DNA of 40,387 nt from Lachnospiraceae bacterium (lineage in GTDB: Bacteria > Bacillota > Clostridia > Lachnospirales > Lachnospiraceae), in the NCBI GenBank assembly GCA_024692715.1, contig JAILMH010000018.1:1-40387 (forward strand), given 5' to 3'. Position 1 is the first letter of the stretch. Every line of letters begins with the position of its first letter. Below, one piece after another: positions 22,672 through 32,636 of the stretch. The notes under the pieces are model-generated. The model was not told the DNA's origin. It searched no databases and was given only the letters and a program-made list of their open reading frames with translations. The translations under genes and the position numbers were made by a program.

Positions 22672-25260
22672 ATGAAAACTTACGCAGTTCATCCAGGTTT
22701 TACTAAACCAACCGCAAGAATCCTTAAGCTTAAGGAAGCGATTCTTGACACAACACCTCGTATCGAGGCTGATCGTGCACTCCTCGTAACTCAGGCTTAC
22801 AAAGAGAATGAAGCTGATCCTGTAGTGCTTAAGCATGCCAAGGCTTTCGCTAAGGTTCTTGAGAATCTTCCGGTAATCATTCGTGACAACGAGCTTATCG
22901 TTGGTACAGCTACTGTAGCTTCACGAGGCTGCCAGATGTTCCCTGAATTCGGAATGCAGGGTCTTACAGAGGAGTGGGACACAGTTGCAACAAGAGCAGC
23001 TGATCCGTTCCAGCTCAGTCCTGAGGTAAGATCTCAGCTCGAAGCTATCGTACCTTACTGGAAGGGTAAGACAACTTCAGAGCTCGCTACAGCTCTTATG
23101 GATGAAGATACAAAGAAAGCTTACGCAGCCGGCGTATTCACTGTTGGTAACTATCATCAGGGCGGTATCGGACATCTTCTTGCTGATTATGAAAAGATCC
23201 TCAAGAAAGGTATCCGCGGCGTATTTGATGAGATCATCACAGCTATGCAGAAGGCTGATAAGAAAGATCCTGAGTGGTTAAGAAAAGAGCAGTTCTATAA
23301 GGCAGCTCTCATCGCACTCAAGGCTGTTATCACTTTTGCACACCGTTACAGCGATAAAGCAAAGGAACTTGCAAATACATGCCCTGATCCTGTAAGAAAG
23401 GCTGAACTCCTTAAGATCGCAGAGATCTGCTCTAAGGTTCCTGAATACGGTGCTACAAACTACTACGAAGCACTCCAGTCATTCTGGTTTGTACAGTTGA
23501 CAATTCAGATCGAGGGTTCAGGCCACTCAATCTCTCCGGGACGTTTCGACCAGTACATGTTCCCATTCTACGATGCTGATCCTATCGATCAGGAATCTGC
23601 ACAGGAACTTCTTGATGCACTCTTTGTTAAGTTCAATGACCTTAACAAACTTCGTGATATCGCAACAGCTACTGCTTTCGCAGGCTATCAGCTGTGGCAG
23701 AACATCAACTGCGGCGGTCAGACAAAGGAAGGCCGCGATGCAACAAACGCTATGTCTTACATGGAGATCGAAGCTATGGCACACATCATGATGTCAATGC
23801 CTTCACTTTCTATCCGTGTATGGAATGAAACACCTGATGATTTCCTCATCAAAGCCTGCGAGCTTTCAAGATGCGGCGGCGGACAGCCTGCATTCTACAA
23901 CGATGAAGAGATCATTCCTGCCAAAGTCAACAGAGGTGAAACTCTTGAGGATGCAAGAAACTACGGTATCATCGGTTGCGTAGAGCCTGCTTCACAGGGT
24001 AAGGAAAACAGCTGGTGCGACGATGCTCTCTTCAACCTTCCTAAGGTTCTTGAGATCGCTATGAACAATGGTCGCCTTAACGGCGAGCAGCTCGGTCCTA
24101 AGACTGGTGAGTTCGTAGACTTCAAGTGCTTCGACGAGTTCATGAACGCTTACACAGAGCAGATGAAGTATTTCGTAAAACTCCTTGTAAACGCTTCTAA
24201 CGCTGTTGATTATGCACACAGACAGTATGGTAAGCTCGCATACATCTCTTGCCTTATCGATGACTGTATCGGAAGAGGTAAGACTCTTGATGAAGGCGGT
24301 GCTCATTATAACTTCACAGGCCCGCAGGGTATCGGTGTTGCCAACATCGGTAATGCTCTCTACGCAGTAAAGAAGCTTGTATTTGATGACAAGTGCCTCT
24401 GCCTTAAGGAGCTCAAAGAAGCTATGGATCACAACTTCGGTATGCCGGAAGGCACAGAATGCGTATCTGCAGTTTCTTCTACACCGGCTGATCAGGCTTA
24501 TGATTCAGTTGTTGATGCTGTTAAGAAGGTTCTTGGCGAGTATTCAACTCTCGATGCTTCTAAGATCGATGTTGACGCTATCACAAGCCGAATCGTAGGC
24601 AGCAGCTCTTGCTGCACAGCAACAGCATCAGCTCCTGCAGCTGCAGGAAATGCCCGTTATCAGCAGATCCATGAGATGATCATGTCCTGCCATAAATACG
24701 GTAATGATGAAGATGATGTAGATCTCCTCGCTCGTAAGGGTGCAAGAGTTTACTGTGAAGAGCTTGAAACATATCCTACACCTCGTGGCGGATGCTTCAA
24801 TGCAGGTCTTTATCCTGTATCAGGAAACGTTCTCTTCGGAACATTCATCGGAGCTACTCCTGATGGACGTTACAAGGGTGAGACCATCGCTGAAGGCGTT
24901 TCACCTACAAGAAGTACTGATGTAAACGGTCCTACAGCAGCAGCTAACTCAGTTGCAAAGCTCGACCACTTCATCGCTTCCAACGGTACTCTTTACAACA
25001 TGAAGTTCTCACCTTCTGCTGTACAGGGACCTGAAGGTGTTGCAAGACTTGCTCAGCTGATCAGAGGATTCTTTGATCGTAAGGGCGGCCACGTTCAGTT
25101 CAACGTTATCGATAAGCAGACACTCCTTGATGCTCAGGCCAACCCTTCAGCACACAAGGATCTTATCGTTCGAGTTGCAGGTTATTCTGCACAGTTCATC
25201 GCTCTTGATAAGACTGTTCAGGATGATATCATCGCAAGAACTGAATTTGACAGATTCTGA
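22672..25260 (+). CDS. Glycyl radical diol dehydratase (B12-independent propanediol/glycerol type)
   Basis: 862 residues. The thiyl cysteine and base are C436 and E438 in GCVEP, and the glycyl radical is G837 in VRVAGYSAQF. Residues matching the glycerol-binding set of the Clostridium butyricum enzyme are kept: H168 (GIGHLL), S286 (GHSISPGR), E438 and D450. The Thr/Tyr positions of choline lyase are not. It is expected to dehydrate 1,2-propanediol to propionaldehyde, or glycerol to 3-hydroxypropionaldehyde. Compared with glycerol dehydratase (787 residues) it carries an insert at about 625-662 with an EP-like helix (IDVDAITSRIVG) and an Ala/Pro-rich linker. Its start follows AAAGGAAAGTAAAC. 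Even codon use suggests high expression. It is followed by its activase. Confidence 0.9.
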   Translation: MKTYAVHPGFTKPTARILKLKEAILDTTPRIEADRALLVTQAYKENEADPVVLKHAKAFAKVLENLPVIIRDNELIVGTATVASRGCQMFPEFGMQGLTEEWDTVATRAADPFQLSPEVRSQLEAIVPYWKGKTTSELATALMDEDTKKAYAAGVFTVGNYHQGGIGHLLADYEKILKKGIRGVFDEIITAMQKADKKDPEWLRKEQFYKAALIALKAVITFAHRYSDKAKELANTCPDPVRKAELLKIAEICSKVPEYGATNYYEALQSFWFVQLTIQIEGSGHSISPGRFDQYMFPFYDADPIDQESAQELLDALFVKFNDLNKLRDIATATAFAGYQLWQNINCGGQTKEGRDATNAMSYMEIEAMAHIMMSMPSLSIRVWNETPDDFLIKACELSRCGGGQPAFYNDEEIIPAKVNRGETLEDARNYGIIGCVEPASQGKENSWCDDALFNLPKVLEIAMNNGRLNGEQLGPKTGEFVDFKCFDEFMNAYTEQMKYFVKLLVNASNAVDYAHRQYGKLAYISCLIDDCIGRGKTLDEGGAHYNFTGPQGIGVANIGNALYAVKKLVFDDKCLCLKELKEAMDHNFGMPEGTECVSAVSSTPADQAYDSVVDAVKKVLGEYSTLDASKIDVDAITSRIVGSSSCCTATASAPAAAGNARYQQIHEMIMSCHKYGNDEDDVDLLARKGARVYCEELETYPTPRGGCFNAGLYPVSGNVLFGTFIGATPDGRYKGETIAEGVSPTRSTDVNGPTAAANSVAKLDHFIASNGTLYNMKFSPSAVQGPEGVARLAQLIRGFFDRKGGHVQFNVIDKQTLLDAQANPSAHKDLIVRVAGYSAQFIALDKTVQDDIIARTEFDRF

Positions 25261-25273
25261 TAAAGCTAAAACT

Positions 25274-25299
25274 CTGGCAGAGCCAAAGCGCTCTGCCGG
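25274..25299 (+). promoter_or_regulatory. Intercistronic stem-loop between dehydratase and activase
   Basis: CTGGCAGAG (25274-25282) pairs with CTCTGCCGG (25291-25299), 9 pairs with one G-U. No T tract follows, so it is more likely an RNA-stability or processing element than a terminator. The activase start behind it has only a weak ribosome site. Confidence 0.5.
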
Positions 25300-25329
25300 A
25301 TAAAAATAAACGATAGGACAAAAAAGTGT

Positions 25330-26097
25330 ATGCCAAATATTGATTACAATCTCAAAGGATGCGTATTCAATATTCAGCGCTTTTCCATTAATGATGGACC
25401 TGGCATCCGCACGATAGTCTTCTTGAAGGGCTGTCCGTTAAGATGCAAATGGTGCTTCAATCCTGAATCTCAATCACCGGAGCCGGCGCAGGGATACGGG
25501 GAAATGATGACCGTCGAGCAGGTCACTGAAGAAATCGCAAAGGATCAGGGACACTACCGCAGATCCGGAGGAGGAATCACCTTTTCCGGCGGCGAGGCTC
25601 TGATGCAGGCTGATTTTGTAGAGCAGATCTGCTACGTTGCCCAGGCACATGGCTGGAATACAGCGATCGAAACGACCGCTTACGCTTCACCTGAGGCTAT
25701 AAAAAAGGTTATACCACTGATTGATCATGTCATGATGGACATCAAGGCTCTTCCGAGTGACCTTCACGCGGAAGGGACCGGTGTTCCAAACGATAAGATC
25801 CTGGAAAATGCGCTTCTGGTGAATTCTCTTGCCAAGGAATTAATTATCCGCGTCCCGGTCATTCCGGAATTCAATTTTTCGGAACAGCAGATCCAGTACA
25901 TCTGCAGATTTGTAAAATATCTGGATAAGGTTAAAGAGATTCACTTACTGCCGTATAACACCTTTGGTGTGAGCAAATATGAAGAGCTTGGCAGAGAATA
26001 TGCATTAAAGAACATTCAACCACTTCACGCTGAAGACCTTGAGCCTTTAGCAGAAACAGTCAGAAATTTTGGATTCCGCTGTAAGATCGGCGGCTAA
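25330..26097 (+). CDS. Glycyl radical enzyme activase (radical SAM), compact form
   Basis: 255 residues. The radical-SAM cluster motif is C35-x3-C39-x2-C42 (GCPLRCKWCFNPE), with SGGEAL (86-91) for SAM binding and FSINDGPGIRT (18-28) typical of glycyl-radical activases. It generates the glycyl radical on the dehydratase using SAM and one low-potential electron. The ferredoxin-like insert with extra Cys clusters present in glycerol dehydratase and choline lyase activases is absent: after CFNPE the chain goes straight into the barrel, as in pyruvate formate-lyase activase. Its ribosome site is weak (AGGA about 12 bases away), which may keep it substoichiometric to the dehydratase. Confidence 0.9.
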   Translation: MPNIDYNLKGCVFNIQRFSINDGPGIRTIVFLKGCPLRCKWCFNPESQSPEPAQGYGEMMTVEQVTEEIAKDQGHYRRSGGGITFSGGEALMQADFVEQICYVAQAHGWNTAIETTAYASPEAIKKVIPLIDHVMMDIKALPSDLHAEGTGVPNDKILENALLVNSLAKELIIRVPVIPEFNFSEQQIQYICRFVKYLDKVKEIHLLPYNTFGVSKYEELGREYALKNIQPLHAEDLEPLAETVRNFGFRCKIGG

Positions 26098-26111
26098 TTA
26101 TGGAGGGAAAT

Positions 26112-26921
26112 ATGCAGGAGGATTTACTGGAAAAAATCCGCAAGGAGATCGACCTGAATCTTGATCAGGCAGCAGCACCTAAGGCAGCAGCTACAGCCAC
26201 AGCAGCTGCACCTACAGTAAGAACTATTCCGGGTGTTACAGAATTCGTAGGAGCTACAGCAGTTGGTAAGACTATCGGTCTTGTGATCGCCAACGTTGAT
26301 CCTCAGCTTCTCGAAACAATGAATGTTGAAAAGAAATACAAGTCTATCGGTATCATCGGCGACAGAACCGGTGCCGGCCCGCACATCTTCGCAGCAGACG
26401 AGGCTGTTAAGGCTACAAACACAGAGATCATCGCTATCGAGCTTCCTCGTGATACAGAGGGTGGTGCAGGACATGGTTCATTCATCATCTTCGGTGCACA
26501 GGATGTATCCGATGTACGCCGTGCCGTTCAGGTAACTCTTCAGGAGATCGACACAAGAGTATTCGGCGATGTATACGGTAATGAAGCCGGTCATGTAGAG
26601 CTTGATTACACAGCACGTGCAAGCTTCGCATGCAATAAGGCATTTGGTGCTCCGATCGGTAAGAGCTTTGCAGCTATCGTTGGTGCTCCTGCCGCTATAG
26701 GTCTTGTAATGGCAGATAAAGCCCTCAAGTCAGCAAATGTTGATGTTGTCGGCTACTCATCACCAGCTCATGGAACAAGCTTCTCAAACGAGGTTATCCT
26801 TACTATCTCCGGTGATTCCGGTGCTGTACGTCAGTCCGTGATCGCTGCAAGAGAAATCGGTATCAAGCTCCTCGGAACACTTGGAAGCGAACCTAAGAGC
26901 TCACAGCCTTCTTATATCTGA
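26112..26921 (+). CDS. pduB: PduB-type trimeric tandem-BMC shell protein
   Basis: 269 residues with two BMC domains, forming trimers in the shell facets. Signature segments include KSIGIIGDRTGAGPHI, AIELPRDTEGGAGHGS, YTARASFACNKAFGAPIG and SPAHGTSFSNE, close to Salmonella PduB. The N-terminal ~45 residues are an amphipathic helix (EDLLEKIRKEIDLNL) plus an Ala/Thr/Pro linker; in Salmonella the PduB N-terminus joins shell to enzyme core. An ATG four codons upstream lies before the ribosome site, whereas ATG 26112 follows GGAGGGAAAT and is preferred. It is 14 bases from the activase stop. Confidence 0.93.
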   Translation: MQEDLLEKIRKEIDLNLDQAAAPKAAATATAAAPTVRTIPGVTEFVGATAVGKTIGLVIANVDPQLLETMNVEKKYKSIGIIGDRTGAGPHIFAADEAVKATNTEIIAIELPRDTEGGAGHGSFIIFGAQDVSDVRRAVQVTLQEIDTRVFGDVYGNEAGHVELDYTARASFACNKAFGAPIGKSFAAIVGAPAAIGLVMADKALKSANVDVVGYSSPAHGTSFSNEVILTISGDSGAVRQSVIAAREIGIKLLGTLGSEPKSSQPSYI

Positions 26922-27002
26922 AGGTAGGCGGATATTTTAAGGCTTTTCATTTTTTGAAAACATGACAATCAGATTTTGTAATAGAAACAGGAGGTAACTC
27001 TA

Positions 27003-27296
27003 ATGAATTCAGATGCATTAGGTATGATCGAAACTCACGGCTATGTAGCAGCTGTAGAAGGTGCAGATGCTATGGTAAAGGCCGCTAACGTTGAATTAGT
27101 AGGTACAGAAAAGATTGGTTCAGGACTTGTAACAGTCCTTGTAAGAGGCGATGTAGGTGCTGTTAAGGCAGCAGTTGACGCAGGTGTTGCAGCAGCTTCA
27201 AATGTTGGAGAAGTTGTTTCTACACACGTTATCCCTCGTCCACATCAGGAAGTCGAGGCAATTATTCCAAAGAAGGTTACTGCTTCATCCAAGTAA
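27003..27296 (+). CDS. BMC-H hexameric shell protein (PduA/J-like), plus-arm copy
   Basis: 97 residues, one BMC domain. It starts [23 protein letters not shown], has the KIGSG pore loop, [19 protein letters not shown] and HVIPRPH, and ends in a short lysine/serine tail. It is a close paralogue of the 90-residue BMC-H in the minus arm. A strong AGGAGGTAACTCTA ribosome site suits a major shell protein. It is the last gene of the plus arm, directly before a terminator. Confidence 0.95.
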
Positions 27297-28527: not shown

Positions 28528-29391
28528 TCAGCCTTTTCTGCCAGCAAGCTCATTTATAAGCGGTTCAAGCAGATAATGCTGCTTTTCAGTATCGTAAGGG
28601 CCAACCTCACCGATACCGATTTTCTTATTTTTGCCATGGTAGTCAGATGCGGCAGAAACATAAAGAGAGTACTTAGAAGCAAGAGAAAGCATAAGCTCCG
28701 AATCATGCTTAGAATAATCAGAATAAAAGCCTTCCACACCGAGCAGCCCAAGTTTCTTAAATCGGACCACACGATTTTCCACCTCTTCATCTGTGAGATC
28801 CTGTCCGCCGTCACCAAAAGGAACATGTGCAAGGACAGGTATCCCTCCGGATCGAAGAATAGTATCGATTGCCTCCTCCGGAGTCATCTTCCTTTCTACC
28901 TCTTTATACCTTATCACGTACTGCTGAATGGCATCAGATATATTTAAAGCATAACCGTTATCAACCAAAACTCTTCCTATGTGAGGTTTCCCCGGATTAT
29001 TCTGGCTTAATATCCATTTTTCATCCTCTTCTGTGATTTTAAGTCCAAGCTCTGAACGAAGAAAATTTATCCTGTTTCTCGCTTTGCTGACTCTGATCTG
29101 ATGAAATGTCTCTGTCATCTCTTTCATATATTTAGAATCAAGATCAAAGCCTAAGCCAACCACATGATACTTTCCCTTTTCATCTTCCGTAGAGAATTCT
29201 ACTCCGTTTATAAAAAGAGGGTCTCCATCCTTAAGGTATTTTCGCATTTCTATACACCCTGCATACGCGTCATGATCTGTAAGTGCAAACATGCCTACAC
29301 CCATTGACTTTACGTTGTTTAGCAGAATCTCCGGTGTATCTGTTCCGTCAGAAAATGTGGAATGCATATGCAGATCGATTTTTTCAAACAT
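28528..29391 (-). CDS. PHP-domain phosphoesterase (TrpH/YciV-like)
   Basis: 287 residues. The metal-binding PHP motifs are visible: HMHSTFSDG at the N-terminus, LTDHDAYAG (about residue 38), the glutamate-containing GVEFST (about 64), LAHVPFG (about 191) and SDYHGKNK near the C-terminus. Relatives include nucleoside 3',5'-bisphosphate or RNA 5'-end phosphatases of the YciV type. ATG 29391 sits at correct distance from GAGGAG; an ATG two codons earlier is too close. It follows the second nitrogenase-like subunit by about 19 bases, so it is the last gene of that operon, an unusual partner whose role there is unknown. Confidence 0.82.
   Translation of the reverse strand: MFEKIDLHMHSTFSDGTDTPEILLNNVKSMGVGMFALTDHDAYAGCIEMRKYLKDGDPLFINGVEFSTEDEKGKYHVVGLGFDLDSKYMKEMTETFHQIRVSKARNRINFLRSELGLKITEEDEKWILSQNNPGKPHIGRVLVDNGYALNISDAIQQYVIRYKEVERKMTPEEAIDTILRSGGIPVLAHVPFGDGGQDLTDEEVENRVVRFKKLGLLGVEGFYSDYSKHDSELMLSLASKYSLYVSAASDYHGKNKKIGIGEVGPYDTEKQHYLLEPLINELAGRKG
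29307..29320 (+). repeat. ACTTTACGTTGTTT repeat, copy 3 (inside PHP gene)
   Basis: Exact copy within the PHP coding region, where the minus strand reads as NNVK. It is preceded by ATTG as in copy 1. Confidence 0.5.
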
Positions 29392-29410
29392 ACTCATACT
29401 CCTCTGCTCT

Positions 29411-30571
29411 TCATTTAATAAAGCCTGCTACATCAAATTCATCGGTTGCGAATACCGGAATCTGCTTTCTATAAATCCTTCCGGAATATGCTTCATGCGG
29501 AAAATCAATAAATCTTATTGCCTTATCACGAGGAATTACTTTATATAAAGGATCCGCGATCACTATTTTTGAGCTCTTTACTGCCTTCATCAGCTGCTCT
29601 TCCGGAAGCCCTTCATCTATATCCGGCCAGATGGCATAAGCCTTAAGGCCATGACGTTCTGACTCCGGAAGACAATTTATCGCATCTGCCAGTGAAAGTG
29701 CAAAAACTTCCTCGCCTATTACTAGTATTCCATCTCCCGGAATCTCCCAATCCTCATGTTCGAGACTTTCATCATATACTATCTGATTTTTGCCGCTCTC
29801 TGCAGCTTCTTTAATGGCAGCCATCAGTTTCTCAGTCTCATCAGCTCCGACAGGAAGTCCCTCAACCCGCGGAATTCCGTTTGTTTTCTCCATAAACCTG
29901 GCTGGACGACGCCCTGCTGATGAAACGACCACATTTACATGCGCTGCATAGAGTTTCTGCATATTTTCAAAGCTCTCTCCCATAGCAGCGCAGCAATTTA
30001 CCTTTATTCCGGCCTTTTCAAAGGTTTCTTTCATCTTCTCCACATTTCCATTTATAGAAAAATCCAGAGGAGTAACGCCCATCAGGTTGACCGAAAGTGC
30101 TGAACTTTTCGTTGTTTTTTCGTCCGCGAACCGTTTGATCCACTCAGTGAATGCCATTCCTACGCCGCTGATATACGACTTTAGTCCATCAGTTGCAACA
30201 GGGAGCACCGGAACACCGCACCTCTTTTCTATAAGATGCGCTGTACCCTTAAAATCAAAGGCGATAATATGCGGTATCGAACCTCCGCACAGCGTTATAA
30301 ACTTTGGCTTCAGGTCTGCTGCAGCCGCCGTTACATTCTTTATGATAACTTCATCATCACCAAGAACCGCTGTCATCTCATCGAGTCCTGAAATAAACAT
30401 AAGGCTCTTTCCGTCAAACCATCTTGGCTCGTCATGTGTGGAATATGTCGAATTACATCCCGAAGGATCATGAATTATAGACATTCCTCCAAGCTCATAC
30501 ATCGCTGAGCACACTCCTGAAACGTCTGCCGTATAGGTACTTGTAAATACATGTGTCTGGTAATCCTTCAT
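29411..30571 (-). CDS. Nitrogenase-like component 1 subunit (shorter, NifK/D-like)
   Basis: 386 residues of the nitrogenase component 1 / oxidoreductase family. Positions below count from an in-frame ATG six codons earlier. Cysteines C27, C45 (in DPSGCNSTYSTH) and C101 (LCGGSIPHIIAFD) match the three regions that hold P-cluster ligands in NifD/NifK, and LDEMTAVLGDDE fits the conserved E-x-VFGG-type loop. It is much shorter than NifD or NifK (~490-520). The chosen ATG 30571 overlaps the upstream stop (ATGA) and follows GGGGGTG. It pairs with the larger subunit; the substrate is unknown. Confidence 0.8.
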   Translation of the reverse strand: MKDYQTHVFTSTYTADVSGVCSAMYELGGMSIIHDPSGCNSTYSTHDEPRWFDGKSLMFISGLDEMTAVLGDDEVIIKNVTAAAADLKPKFITLCGGSIPHIIAFDFKGTAHLIEKRCGVPVLPVATDGLKSYISGVGMAFTEWIKRFADEKTTKSSALSVNLMGVTPLDFSINGNVEKMKETFEKAGIKVNCCAAMGESFENMQKLYAAHVNVVVSSAGRRPARFMEKTNGIPRVEGLPVGADETEKLMAAIKEAAESGKNQIVYDESLEHEDWEIPGDGILVIGEEVFALSLADAINCLPESERHGLKAYAIWPDIDEGLPEEQLMKAVKSSKIVIADPLYKVIPRDKAIRFIDFPHEAYSGRIYRKQIPVFATDEFDVAGFIK

Positions 30572-31875
30572 ACGCAGCTGCACCCCCATCCTTTTATTGA
30601 AACCAGCTCTCTCATCGGTTTCTCCTCGTTATATGCTTCACGGATGAGCTCCATCAGATGCCGTATGCCGGAAAATCCACACATTCCCGCATTTTCTATC
30701 ACATTTACGAAATTATTGGAATCCATAAAGTATGCGCTTTTCTGCCCGATACATACTATCTTACCGTCATGCATCCTGTCCATCTGACGGATATTCCAAC
30801 CTATTGTTCCGTACATTTTAAGCTCAGGCTTCATTCTCTTAAGCCTGTCAAATCTCTCCTGCGACTCTGTTATAGCATCCACAAAGACCGCCTCAACGTT
30901 AAAACCTCTGCTTAAAAGAAATTCTGCCAGCTCAAGCGGAAAATCTACCGCTGTATAATCAAGGGCAACCGCTGTATCTCCAAGCAGTGCCTTTGTTTCA
31001 GCGATCGCATCATCTGTAAGCTTTCGTTCATTTTCAAACCATTCTTTAGACGGTGCTTCGATCCCTACAAGCTCAGCCGCCTCGCAGAGATCCTTTTCCA
31101 AAACATCATAATCATAACCTGGGTGCATTCTCAGCCACTTTACGTTGTTTCTTATCTCAAGATCCTTTGCCGCCTTCTCGCCTGTGTTATGGAAAACAAA
31201 ATTCACCTCTGAATCCTGCATAGACATATATTCATCGTAGGTCTTTACATTATTCGCTTCCAGAGTTTTTATACCGTTTTTATTGAGAAGCGCTGTGAGA
31301 TCGCAGTATTCAGGCCCATAGGTAAAGCAGTTTCCAAGATAATTTACCTGATCCTTTTTCCAGCTTTCCGGTTTGTTAAACGGTCTCGTCATCTGCCTCC
31401 AGAGTACCGGCACTACCGGTGCTGTACGGCGCATTATAGGGTTCATATAGGCATCTATAAAGTCAATATCCGGATATTCTTTTCTCAAGATCTTATAGAT
31501 CCGCTGATAATTGACCGCAAGAAAGTGATGAATACAGCTTATGAACACCATGATCATTTTCGGTCTCTCCGGGAGCTCCTCAATGATCCTTTCCGTTCCA
31601 TGCAGAAGCTGCTCTTCCATATTTCCCTCGATGATATTGTCTTCACCGACGGTTATGGTAGAAAGCTTATCCATGCGCCCCATTTCCGCCGTAGTGAGCA
31701 CTACTCCTCTAAGGCAGCTTGTCGGACACACAAATATCTGGTGTCCGCCGGGGACCAGCGTTCCGATGTGTACAATATTCCAGACACCCCTCACCGGTGA
31801 AGCATATGCAAGGCCATCGTCAGCATTGTACTCATACTTCATATCCTTTATATACTGAAATTCTTTTCCATCCAT
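30568..31875 (-). CDS. Nitrogenase-like component 1 subunit (larger, NifD/E-like)
   Basis: About 435 residues. Cluster-ligand candidates, counted from an upstream TTG two codons earlier, are C52 and C56 (VCPTSCLRG), C116 (FISCIHHF), plus C185 and C193. GEDNIIEGN corresponds to the E-x-VIFGG-type loop of NifD/E/BchN relatives, but without its cysteine. The chain ends in GWGCSCV, a C-terminal Cys-x-Cys not expected for this family. The start may be ATG 31875 or TTG 31881, which overlaps the Fe-protein stop; both share the AAGGA box. It forms the likely heteromer with the next gene, receiving electrons from the NifH-like protein. Confidence 0.8.
   Translation of the reverse strand: MDGKEFQYIKDMKYEYNADDGLAYASPVRGVWNIVHIGTLVPGGHQIFVCPTSCLRGVVLTTAEMGRMDKLSTITVGEDNIIEGNMEEQLLHGTERIIEELPERPKMIMVFISCIHHFLAVNYQRIYKILRKEYPDIDFIDAYMNPIMRRTAPVVPVLWRQMTRPFNKPESWKKDQVNYLGNCFTYGPEYCDLTALLNKNGIKTLEANNVKTYDEYMSMQDSEVNFVFHNTGEKAAKDLEIRNNVKWLRMHPGYDYDVLEKDLCEAAELVGIEAPSKEWFENERKLTDDAIAETKALLGDTAVALDYTAVDFPLELAEFLLSRGFNVEAVFVDAITESQERFDRLKRMKPELKMYGTIGWNIRQMDRMHDGKIVCIGQKSAYFMDSNNFVNVIENAGMCGFSGIRHLMELIREAYNEEKPMRELVSIKGWGCSCV
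31137..31150 (+). repeat. ACTTTACGTTGTTT repeat, copy 4 (inside nitrogenase-like gene)
   Basis: Exact copy inside the larger nitrogenase-like gene, where the minus strand again reads as NNVK. Confidence 0.5.
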
Positions 31876-31877
31876 AA

Positions 31878-32636
31878 TCAATGATTCCTTCCATGCTCGA
31901 TCATTCGCTTGGCAAGCTCTCTCACAGCTTTCACATACTCACAGTCAGGGTGCATCTCAAATACGCTTCTTCCCTGTGCTTCTGCCTCTGCAATGGAATT
32001 ATCCCTCGGAAGATCAGCCGCTATCTCTGTTTTCAGGTCTCCCGCAAGTGTTTCCACCTTTTCTCTCTCATCCGGTACATTTCTCCGGTTAAGGATGAGA
32101 CCTCCAAGGTGAGCATAGCCTCTTTCCTTAAAATTATCGACCGCCATGGCAATGTTTGCAGCCGCATATATAGCCATATTTTCACCGGATGTCACGATAT
32201 ATACATCATCCGCATAGCCTTCTCTTATAGGCATCGCAAATCCTCCGCAGACCACATCTCCAAGAACATCATATATGATAACGTCCGGCTTTAAGATATC
32301 GAACGCATCTCGCTCCTCAAGCGCTTCAAAAGCCGCAGCAATACCTCTTCCTGCGCAGCCAAGCCCCGGTGTCGGGCCTCCGGCTTCCGCACAGATTATT
32401 CCGTTATAACCTTCGTGAACCAGATCTTCCAGCTCGGCCTTTGAGCGCTTCTTTTTCAAGACGTCGAGCATAGTCTCGATACGCTCTCCTCCGTGAAGAT
32501 AAAGCGTAGAATCCGCCTTCGGATCACAGCCTATCTGCATGACCTTAAGCCCCATCTCTGCAAAAGCACACGAAAGCGCTGCGCAGGCCGTTGATTTACC
32601 GATTCCACCCTTACCATAAATAGCAAATCTATACAT
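31878..32636 (-). CDS. NifH/BchL-like Fe protein (ATP-dependent reductase)
   Basis: 252 residues. Near the N-terminus is the P-loop GKGGIGKST, followed by IGCDPKADST (switch I region). The two cysteines that bridge a [4Fe-4S] cluster in the dimer lie in GLGCAGRGI and DVLGDVVCGGFAMP (switch II). All elements for ATP-gated electron transfer are intact. An ATG nine codons upstream exists, but ATG 32636 follows GGAGGAATTTTTT and gives the family start. First gene of a four-gene operon with two component-1-like subunits and a PHP protein. It is probably not a true NifH, because no nifB/E/N or full-size nifDK is present. Confidence 0.88.
   Translation of the reverse strand: MYRFAIYGKGGIGKSTACAALSCAFAEMGLKVMQIGCDPKADSTLYLHGGERIETMLDVLKKKRSKAELEDLVHEGYNGIICAEAGGPTPGLGCAGRGIAAAFEALEERDAFDILKPDVIIYDVLGDVVCGGFAMPIREGYADDVYIVTSGENMAIYAAANIAMAVDNFKERGYAHLGGLILNRRNVPDEREKVETLAGDLKTEIAADLPRDNSIAEAEAQGRSVFEMHPDCEYVKAVRELAKRMIEHGRNH

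Follow-up and report, generated by a model that had tools for sequence, protein, structure and literature searches.

A nitrogenase-like gene trio of Lachnospiraceae proposed to replace HydG in H-cluster assembly

A contig of a Lachnospiraceae bacterium (GenBank assembly GCA_024692715.1, contig JAILMH010000018.1, positions 1 to 40,387; these 40,387 nucleotides are called the window here) carries genes for a nitrogenase-type Fe protein and two short subunits resembling nitrogenase component 1 (alpha and beta), followed by a gene for a PHP phosphoesterase. What does such a pair of components reduce? An initial annotation, made from the letters of the window, expected an ATP-driven, low-potential reduction and regarded the phosphoesterase as a clue to the substrate. 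We propose instead that the three nitrogenase-like genes probably encode a two-component, ATP-driven reductase with a single [4Fe-4S] cluster, which would take the place of HydG in H-cluster assembly. Judged from gene content and sequence, the genome evidence for a conserved HydG substitute built from nitrogenase-like parts appears strong.

HydG cleaves tyrosine to carbon monoxide (CO) and cyanide (CN) on iron (PMC11736057, PMC3105041, as excerpted). The distributions of HydG and of the nitrogenase-like system were compared in 200 genomes of the Lachnospiraceae family, representing 199 genera, and in 283 genomes of the class, for which "over cut-off" was inferred from the best E-values. In the family sample, HydG exceeded its cut-off in 100 genomes and HydE in 118. 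HydG was missing from all 15 HydE-positive carriers of the system and from six of the 103 other HydE-positive genomes (Fisher p = 1.5e-14). Fourteen of these carriers were recognized by the trio seen in the window (set A) and one (G167) by a second, related set (set B) alone; its removal gave p = 2.2e-13. All ten carriers of the class sample, the genome holding the window among them, had HydE and none had HydG, compared with seven of 178 other HydE-positive genomes without HydG (Fisher p = 1.6e-12). Among 50 further carriers, 47 lacked HydG, including Clostridium ljungdahlii. Within a single genus (g258), four species (G307, G383, G406, and G448) had the system without HydG and two (G334 and G488) had HydG without the system. 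The HydA domain (PF02906) was detected in all 26 genomes tested, including the 15 family carriers.

These counts leave aside a group of more distant relatives, clade C. Six of the 21 family matches (G004, G048, G059, G072, G143, and G152) were placed in it once their HydG status was known, G004 solely because its match was weak and the other five from alignment, gene neighbours, and tree position; with clade C kept, 16 of 18 HydE-positive carriers lacked HydG (p = 1.2e-13). Five class matches (G321, G389, G396, G427, and G516; E 1e-58 to 1e-100) were set aside likewise, four of them with both HydG and HydE and one with neither. Retaining these weaker matches gave 10 of 14 HydE-positive carriers without HydG (p = 1.4e-9), six class matches of E 1e-14 or worse being left uncounted.

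The gene neighbourhoods were analyzed in the best 80 of at least 562 loci from a scan of named genomes, with flanks of 10 kb or less and with some loci cut by contig ends. The conserved context of the system is [FeFe]-hydrogenase maturation (HydE, HydF, TM1266, and HypCDEF), with HydE, HydF, or TM1266 lying in the fetched flank of 58 loci. A binding protein of the iron-chelate-type ABC importers was present in 56 loci, and HypD in six, all of them from Clostridium; the two never occurred together (0/80). The system stands beside HypFCDE in C. ljungdahlii, C. ragsdalei, C. carboxidivorans, C. drakei, C. muellerianum, and C. thailandense. The family sample followed the same division, in that the binding protein was absent next to set A in the 11 set-A carriers that have HypD and present in the three that lack it, and the eight class loci examined held Hyp genes in five cases and the importer in three. 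A quick tree of the alpha subunit required a minimum of four changes between the two arrangements, with 16 rows unassignable. Given this mutual exclusion and these changes, the same reductase seems to be supplied either by the importer or by the module of Hyp genes and set B. In a complete operon of the importer type (L110, L133, and L134), the gene order is HydE, Fe protein, alpha, beta, binding protein, permease, ATPase, HydF, and TM1266. The reductase thus follows HydE, which is the position of HydG in genomes that have it, such as G155 and G138. By genome content the system fills the same slot as HydG, and in several operons the same place beside HydE, although it is an unrelated protein system in which Pfam detects no radical S-adenosylmethionine (SAM) domain.

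The ABC genes resemble importers of the BtuC, heme, and iron-chelate types, with scores below the cut-offs. This resemblance could point to a tetrapyrrole or corrinoid reductase with chemistry of the DPOR/CfbCD kind, fed by a BtuCDF-like importer and linked to hydrogenases only indirectly. The cysteine site, which is like that of BchNB, and clade C, where the importer is found with no hydrogenase genes nearby, agree with such an enzyme, but the near-exclusion of HydG and the presence of HypFCDE in the place of the importer would be left unexplained, and we consider it improbable. Clade C itself (L048, L049, L050, L052, L230-L234, and L237, the Treponema saccharophilum plasmid pTS1) consists of a nitrogenase-like trio and an iron-chelate-type ABC importer, with no maturation genes found nearby. 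In L052, the trio is flanked by two E1-E2 (P-type) ATPases and a metal-sensitive repressor. The genome concerned (G059, 99% complete) has five PF02906 matches, two of them below E 1e-90, and no HydE or HydG match; it possibly uses a still more altered maturation route.

The genome holding the window (90% complete) has HydA, HydE, and HypD, and neither a NiFe-hydrogenase nor a HydG over the cut-off was found in it. A second nitrogenase-like set, NFL-B (set B), lies on another contig (C65) and comprises an Fe protein and a fused alpha-beta protein, followed by HypF, HypC, HypD, HypE, and HydE, all above their NCBIfam cut-offs. Because HydE and HypFCDE lie on that contig, the maturation context was invisible to the initial annotation. 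A reading as the mlp/group IV-A type was dropped when the neighbours proved to be HypCDEF. Among the 20 fetched family loci, seven (L042, L044-L047, L051, and L053) had sets A and B side by side, accompanied by Hyp genes and at least one of TM1266, HydF, and HydE; gene assignments in the other loci were made by sequence cluster. HypD was present in 12 of the 15 family carriers versus 19 of the 185 other family genomes, and no NiFe-hydrogenase large subunit was found in 11 of the 12 HypD-positive carriers. The Hyp set of most HypD-positive carriers is therefore without its usual client and, by our reading, serves the H-cluster. The arrangement resembles the HypCDEF pathway of NiFe-hydrogenases in that a full HypFCDE set stands beside NFL-B in this genome, and differs from it in the lack of the large subunit in these carriers. 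A genome of the same genus as the window (G079) has HypD, but PF00148 was not matched in it and neither HydG nor HydE passed the cut-off.

The sequences of the subunits suggest what kind of metal site the reductase would hold. The Fe protein has GKGGIGKST at residue 8, CDPKADST at residue 37, and Cys94 and Cys130, which we take to be the functional motifs and cluster cysteines of an Fe protein, as in the initial annotation. In the alpha subunit, C50, C54, C114, and C432 are kept in at least 90% of a 50-row alignment (A4), and in the beta subunit only C39 is kept at this level in a 44-row alignment (A5). What had been described as partial P-cluster cysteine sets thus corresponds to alpha C50, C54, and C114 and beta C39, all conserved. 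Against reference records, alpha C54 shares a column with BchN Cys53 and NifD Cys89, alpha C114 with BchN Cys114 and NifD Cys155, and beta C39 with BchB Asp36 and NifK Cys94. The alpha-beta pair would accordingly have room for one [4Fe-4S] cluster, presumably of the DPOR/NifEN kind, and for no ligand of the iron-molybdenum cofactor (FeMoco); a four-ligand site of the same kind as in DPOR is likely. The Fe protein plus two subunits sharing one [4Fe-4S] site recall BchL/BchNB, whereas the fourth ligand here is a cysteine, the first BchN cysteine has apparently moved to C50, and the Fe protein belongs to a separate clade. The beta subunit carries an HDEPRW motif in 76 of 76 relatives. The alpha subunit ends in a cysteine tail, GWGCSCV (C432 and C434), which is perhaps a metal-handling tail and is absent from five clade C rows of alignment A1.

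None of the four proteins encoded in the run reached an NCBIfam cut-off. The Fe protein scored 318 bits against nifH (cut-off 394), 201.5 against BchL (345), and 304 against CfbC (402); the beta subunit scored 38.7 against nifD (653.6), 16.3 against nifK (427.3), and 69.3 against BchB (509); and the alpha subunit matched nifN alone (15, cut-off 326.8). A sequence search of the PDB with the alpha subunit alone gave no match, and its profile found VnfD and NifE. In a 53-row tree of Fe proteins, with three NifH and two BchL sequences and the nitrogenase-like groups B and C as references and with CfbC and Mar left out, the proteins of this system formed a separate clade A with 100/100 support. Membership of the nitrogenase and DPOR families was rejected. 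For Mo nitrogenase (NifHDK), no FeMoco cysteine was found at the 90% level among the 50 alpha rows, and the equivalog scores are below cut-off. For DPOR, the BchL and BchB cut-offs were missed, the position of Asp36 is taken by Cys39, and the first N-subunit cysteine is displaced. CfbCD, the F430 reductase, has a single catalytic subunit gene, where two are found here, and the CfbC score was too low. A nitrogenase or methylthio-alkane reductase with a NifB-type cofactor, the latter judged with Mar sequences outside the comparison, would agree with the Pfam superfamily membership; given the lack of a FeMoco cysteine among the alpha and beta cysteines conserved at 90% and the failure of the nif equivalog cut-offs, we give it almost no weight.

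The cysteine pattern of three alpha and one beta residues also resembles NifEN, profile searches gave matches to NifE and NifD/VnfD, and the tail in its KGxGC..C form (strict pattern) is present in 59 of 80 alpha subunits. The proteins could thus be a NifEN-type scaffold for assembling or reducing the two-iron unit, with CO and CN coming from HypCDEF or, in the other arrangement, from an unknown source. This is a serious though doubtful alternative, as it is specifically HydG that carriers miss, and 31 of the 80 loci contain HydF, which is the known scaffold.

Beyond the observed gene anatomy, near-exclusion, and context, we infer the action of the proteins in H-cluster assembly and the reaction itself. 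In the HydG-replacing reductase that we favour, the Fe protein would feed electrons of low potential into a single [4Fe-4S] cluster, bound by three alpha cysteines and one beta cysteine, and a reduction in the cavity between alpha and beta would give, or finish, an iron-CO/CN unit that HydE and HydF would build into the two-iron centre. In the first arrangement, represented by this genome, other Lachnospiraceae, and the Clostridium acetogens, HypFCDE and NFL-B would work with the reductase, HypFCDE supplying CN from carbamoyl phosphate; in the second, the iron-chelate-type ABC importer would stand in the operon in place of HypFCDE and NFL-B. A reductase of this build, ATP-driven and with one low-potential cluster, would suit a two-electron step, perhaps turning CO2 into CO on iron; alternatively, it might reduce an Fe(CN)2CO-type unit so that HydE can accept it. 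Nitrogenase Fe proteins are able to reduce CO2 to CO, and our favoured guess is that CO is reductively formed on iron or loaded onto it. Without HydG, CN can derive from carbamoyl phosphate via HypF and HypE, and the anaerobic source of CO is described as unresolved (PMC12134894, as excerpted). A more specific version, which we advance tentatively, is a nitrogenase-like, ATP-driven ligand synthase independent of tyrosine and HydG, in which a one-carbon substrate would be reduced on iron and joined by cyanide from HypFCDE, while the importer may bring in an iron-cyanide or iron-carbonyl precursor from neighbouring cells.

Several observations weigh against the replacement of HydG. No hydrogenase gene adjoins the operon within the window. 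Three of the 50 further carriers do have HydG (C. drakei, C. thailandense, and Intestinibacter bartlettii). Conversely, HydE-positive genomes with neither HydG nor the system exist in both samples (six in the family and seven in the class); three of them, G086, G142, and G181 (94-100% complete), have HydE and HydA with no HydG over the cut-off, and represent either a third solution or missed genes. All three ABC-type carriers of the family sample lack HypD and, because of this absence, their CN source is unexplained; the model is at its weakest in the importer arrangement, for which no source of CN is known. An importer of this kind also occurs in clade C, which has no maturation genes nearby and is found mostly in genomes that have HydG or lack HydE. 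Moreover, the unit counted in the Fisher tests is the genome and not the independent event. In a HydE tree, from which two rows with evident wrong-frame reads (L195 and L086) were removed after the first version, carriers and HydG genomes were interleaved. With all rows, seven supported independent contrasts were obtained (median p = 0.03), HydG being counted as absent in 12 carrier rows of genomes not searched for it; with HydG-searched genomes only, five remained (median p = 0.125). The independence of the contrasts is suggestive only. The five were all in the expected direction or neutral, with none the wrong way, and repeated exchange between HydG and the system is therefore likely.

The association of the system with hydrogenase maturation is already known. 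Dos Santos et al. (2012) described NifHEN-like proteins in Coprococcus catus and other Firmicutes, in two linked sets with no FeMoco ligands and few cysteines, associated with hydrogenase maturation proteins; a role in an active-site metallocluster was proposed in one sentence, and the DPOR aspartate was also mentioned (PMC3464626, as excerpted). Relative to that excerpt, the exclusion of HydG, the choice between HypFCDE and importer, and the NiFe-hydrogenase-free genomes are added here. The excerpted survey of eight Clostridium acetogens by Di Leonardo et al. (PMC9431212) reports HydE and HydF in all eight and HydG, by known motifs, in three, with hydG unassignable in five; C. drakei is listed with HydG, in agreement with our profile search. 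Its authors explained the gap by radical-SAM proteins of an atypical kind or by ligand supply through mechanisms as yet unknown. The same survey (PMC9431212) gives HypCDEF without HypAB in five acetogens, two HypCDE sets in C. carboxidivorans, and a single NiFe-hydrogenase per species; both hydrogenases may therefore be clients of the Hyp set there. Its atypical radical-SAM proteins, of about 450 residues, were proposed as HydG in the species concerned, which also counts against our reading. If they did the work of HydG, the nitrogenase-like genes would do something else while travelling with the hydrogenase genes. Such proteins are named in all surveyed acetogens except C. autoethanogenum (PMC9431212). 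However, the best matches to the HydG model were below cut-off in C. ljungdahlii (E 7e-19), C. ragsdalei (1e-18), and C. carboxidivorans (2e-58), and HydG is likewise missing from carriers outside Clostridium, so we judge this explanation unlikely. In the open-licence papers, represented mostly by listings, we found no report of the replacement or near-exclusion of HydG, of a Hyp set without a NiFe-hydrogenase, or of the two supplies. A word search of the main text of papers on C. autoethanogenum transposon mutagenesis and C. ljungdahlii CRISPRi gave no mention of nitrogenase or Hyp proteins.

The composition of the run was as initially annotated, with all four genes called as open reading frames in the same direction (32636-28528) and every Pfam match above its gathering score and well outside what chance would give (Table 1). 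The start codon of the Fe protein is likely the one at 32636; a longer reading frame opens at an ATG further upstream. The reading frames of alpha and beta share 4 nucleotides. A promoter scan gave 13 candidates versus 8.5 +/- 3.0 in shuffled sequences, and terminators numbered 4 versus 2.7, which is no clear signal. Upstream lies a divergent uridine kinase gene; downstream, the opposite strand carries a small microcompartment operon that includes a glycyl-radical enzyme and, beyond it, the gene of a regulator. This very small operon (22672-27296) encodes a glycyl-radical enzyme of the PFL2/glycerol-dehydratase subfamily, an activase, PduB, and an EutM-like shell protein, whose match is under its cut-off.

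Table 1. Genes of the nitrogenase-like run in the window
Feature	Coordinates	Strand	Evidence
Fe protein (NflH-A), 252 aa	31878..32636	-	Pfam PF00142, E 3.6e-89; motifs; tree clade A
Alpha-like component-1 subunit, 435 aa	30568..31875	-	Pfam PF00148, E 1.6e-15
Beta-like component-1 subunit, 386 aa	29411..30571	-	Pfam PF00148, E 2.6e-33
PHP phosphoesterase, 289 aa	28528..29397	-	Pfam PF02811, E 5.4e-10

The PHP gene begins 13 nucleotides after the beta gene, is preceded by a Shine-Dalgarno-like sequence, and is perhaps part of the same transcript as the nitrogenase-like genes. Its nearest models are a nucleoside-bisphosphate phosphatase and RNase RNM (NCBIfam 131 bits, cut-off 400). The initial annotation had made its value as a substrate clue depend on conservation of this neighbour. 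It adjoins the system in one of the 80 loci, that of Lachnospiraceae bacterium KH1T2 (L055), the nearest relative, with a 90% identical alpha subunit; no PHP match was found in the 20 other family-sample loci compared, 18 of which hold the trio or part of it. With 79 loci lacking the neighbour, the clue was ruled out, and reduction of a metabolite to which the phosphoesterase belongs, which the spacing, the Shine-Dalgarno-like sequence, and the retention in KH1T2 might have favoured, is highly improbable. The PHP gene is probably a bystander. The expectation of an ATP-driven, low-potential reduction itself stands, as the parts of the nitrogenase-like pair fit it.

If the reductase does replace HydG, H-cluster assembly would join the jobs of the nitrogenase superfamily, with candidate genes now named in genetically tractable organisms. 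Going by the titles of their records, many carriers are bacteria of the rumen and gut, where hydrogen turnover matters, and if the importer brings in a ready-made precursor, gut bacteria would share an organometallic intermediate.

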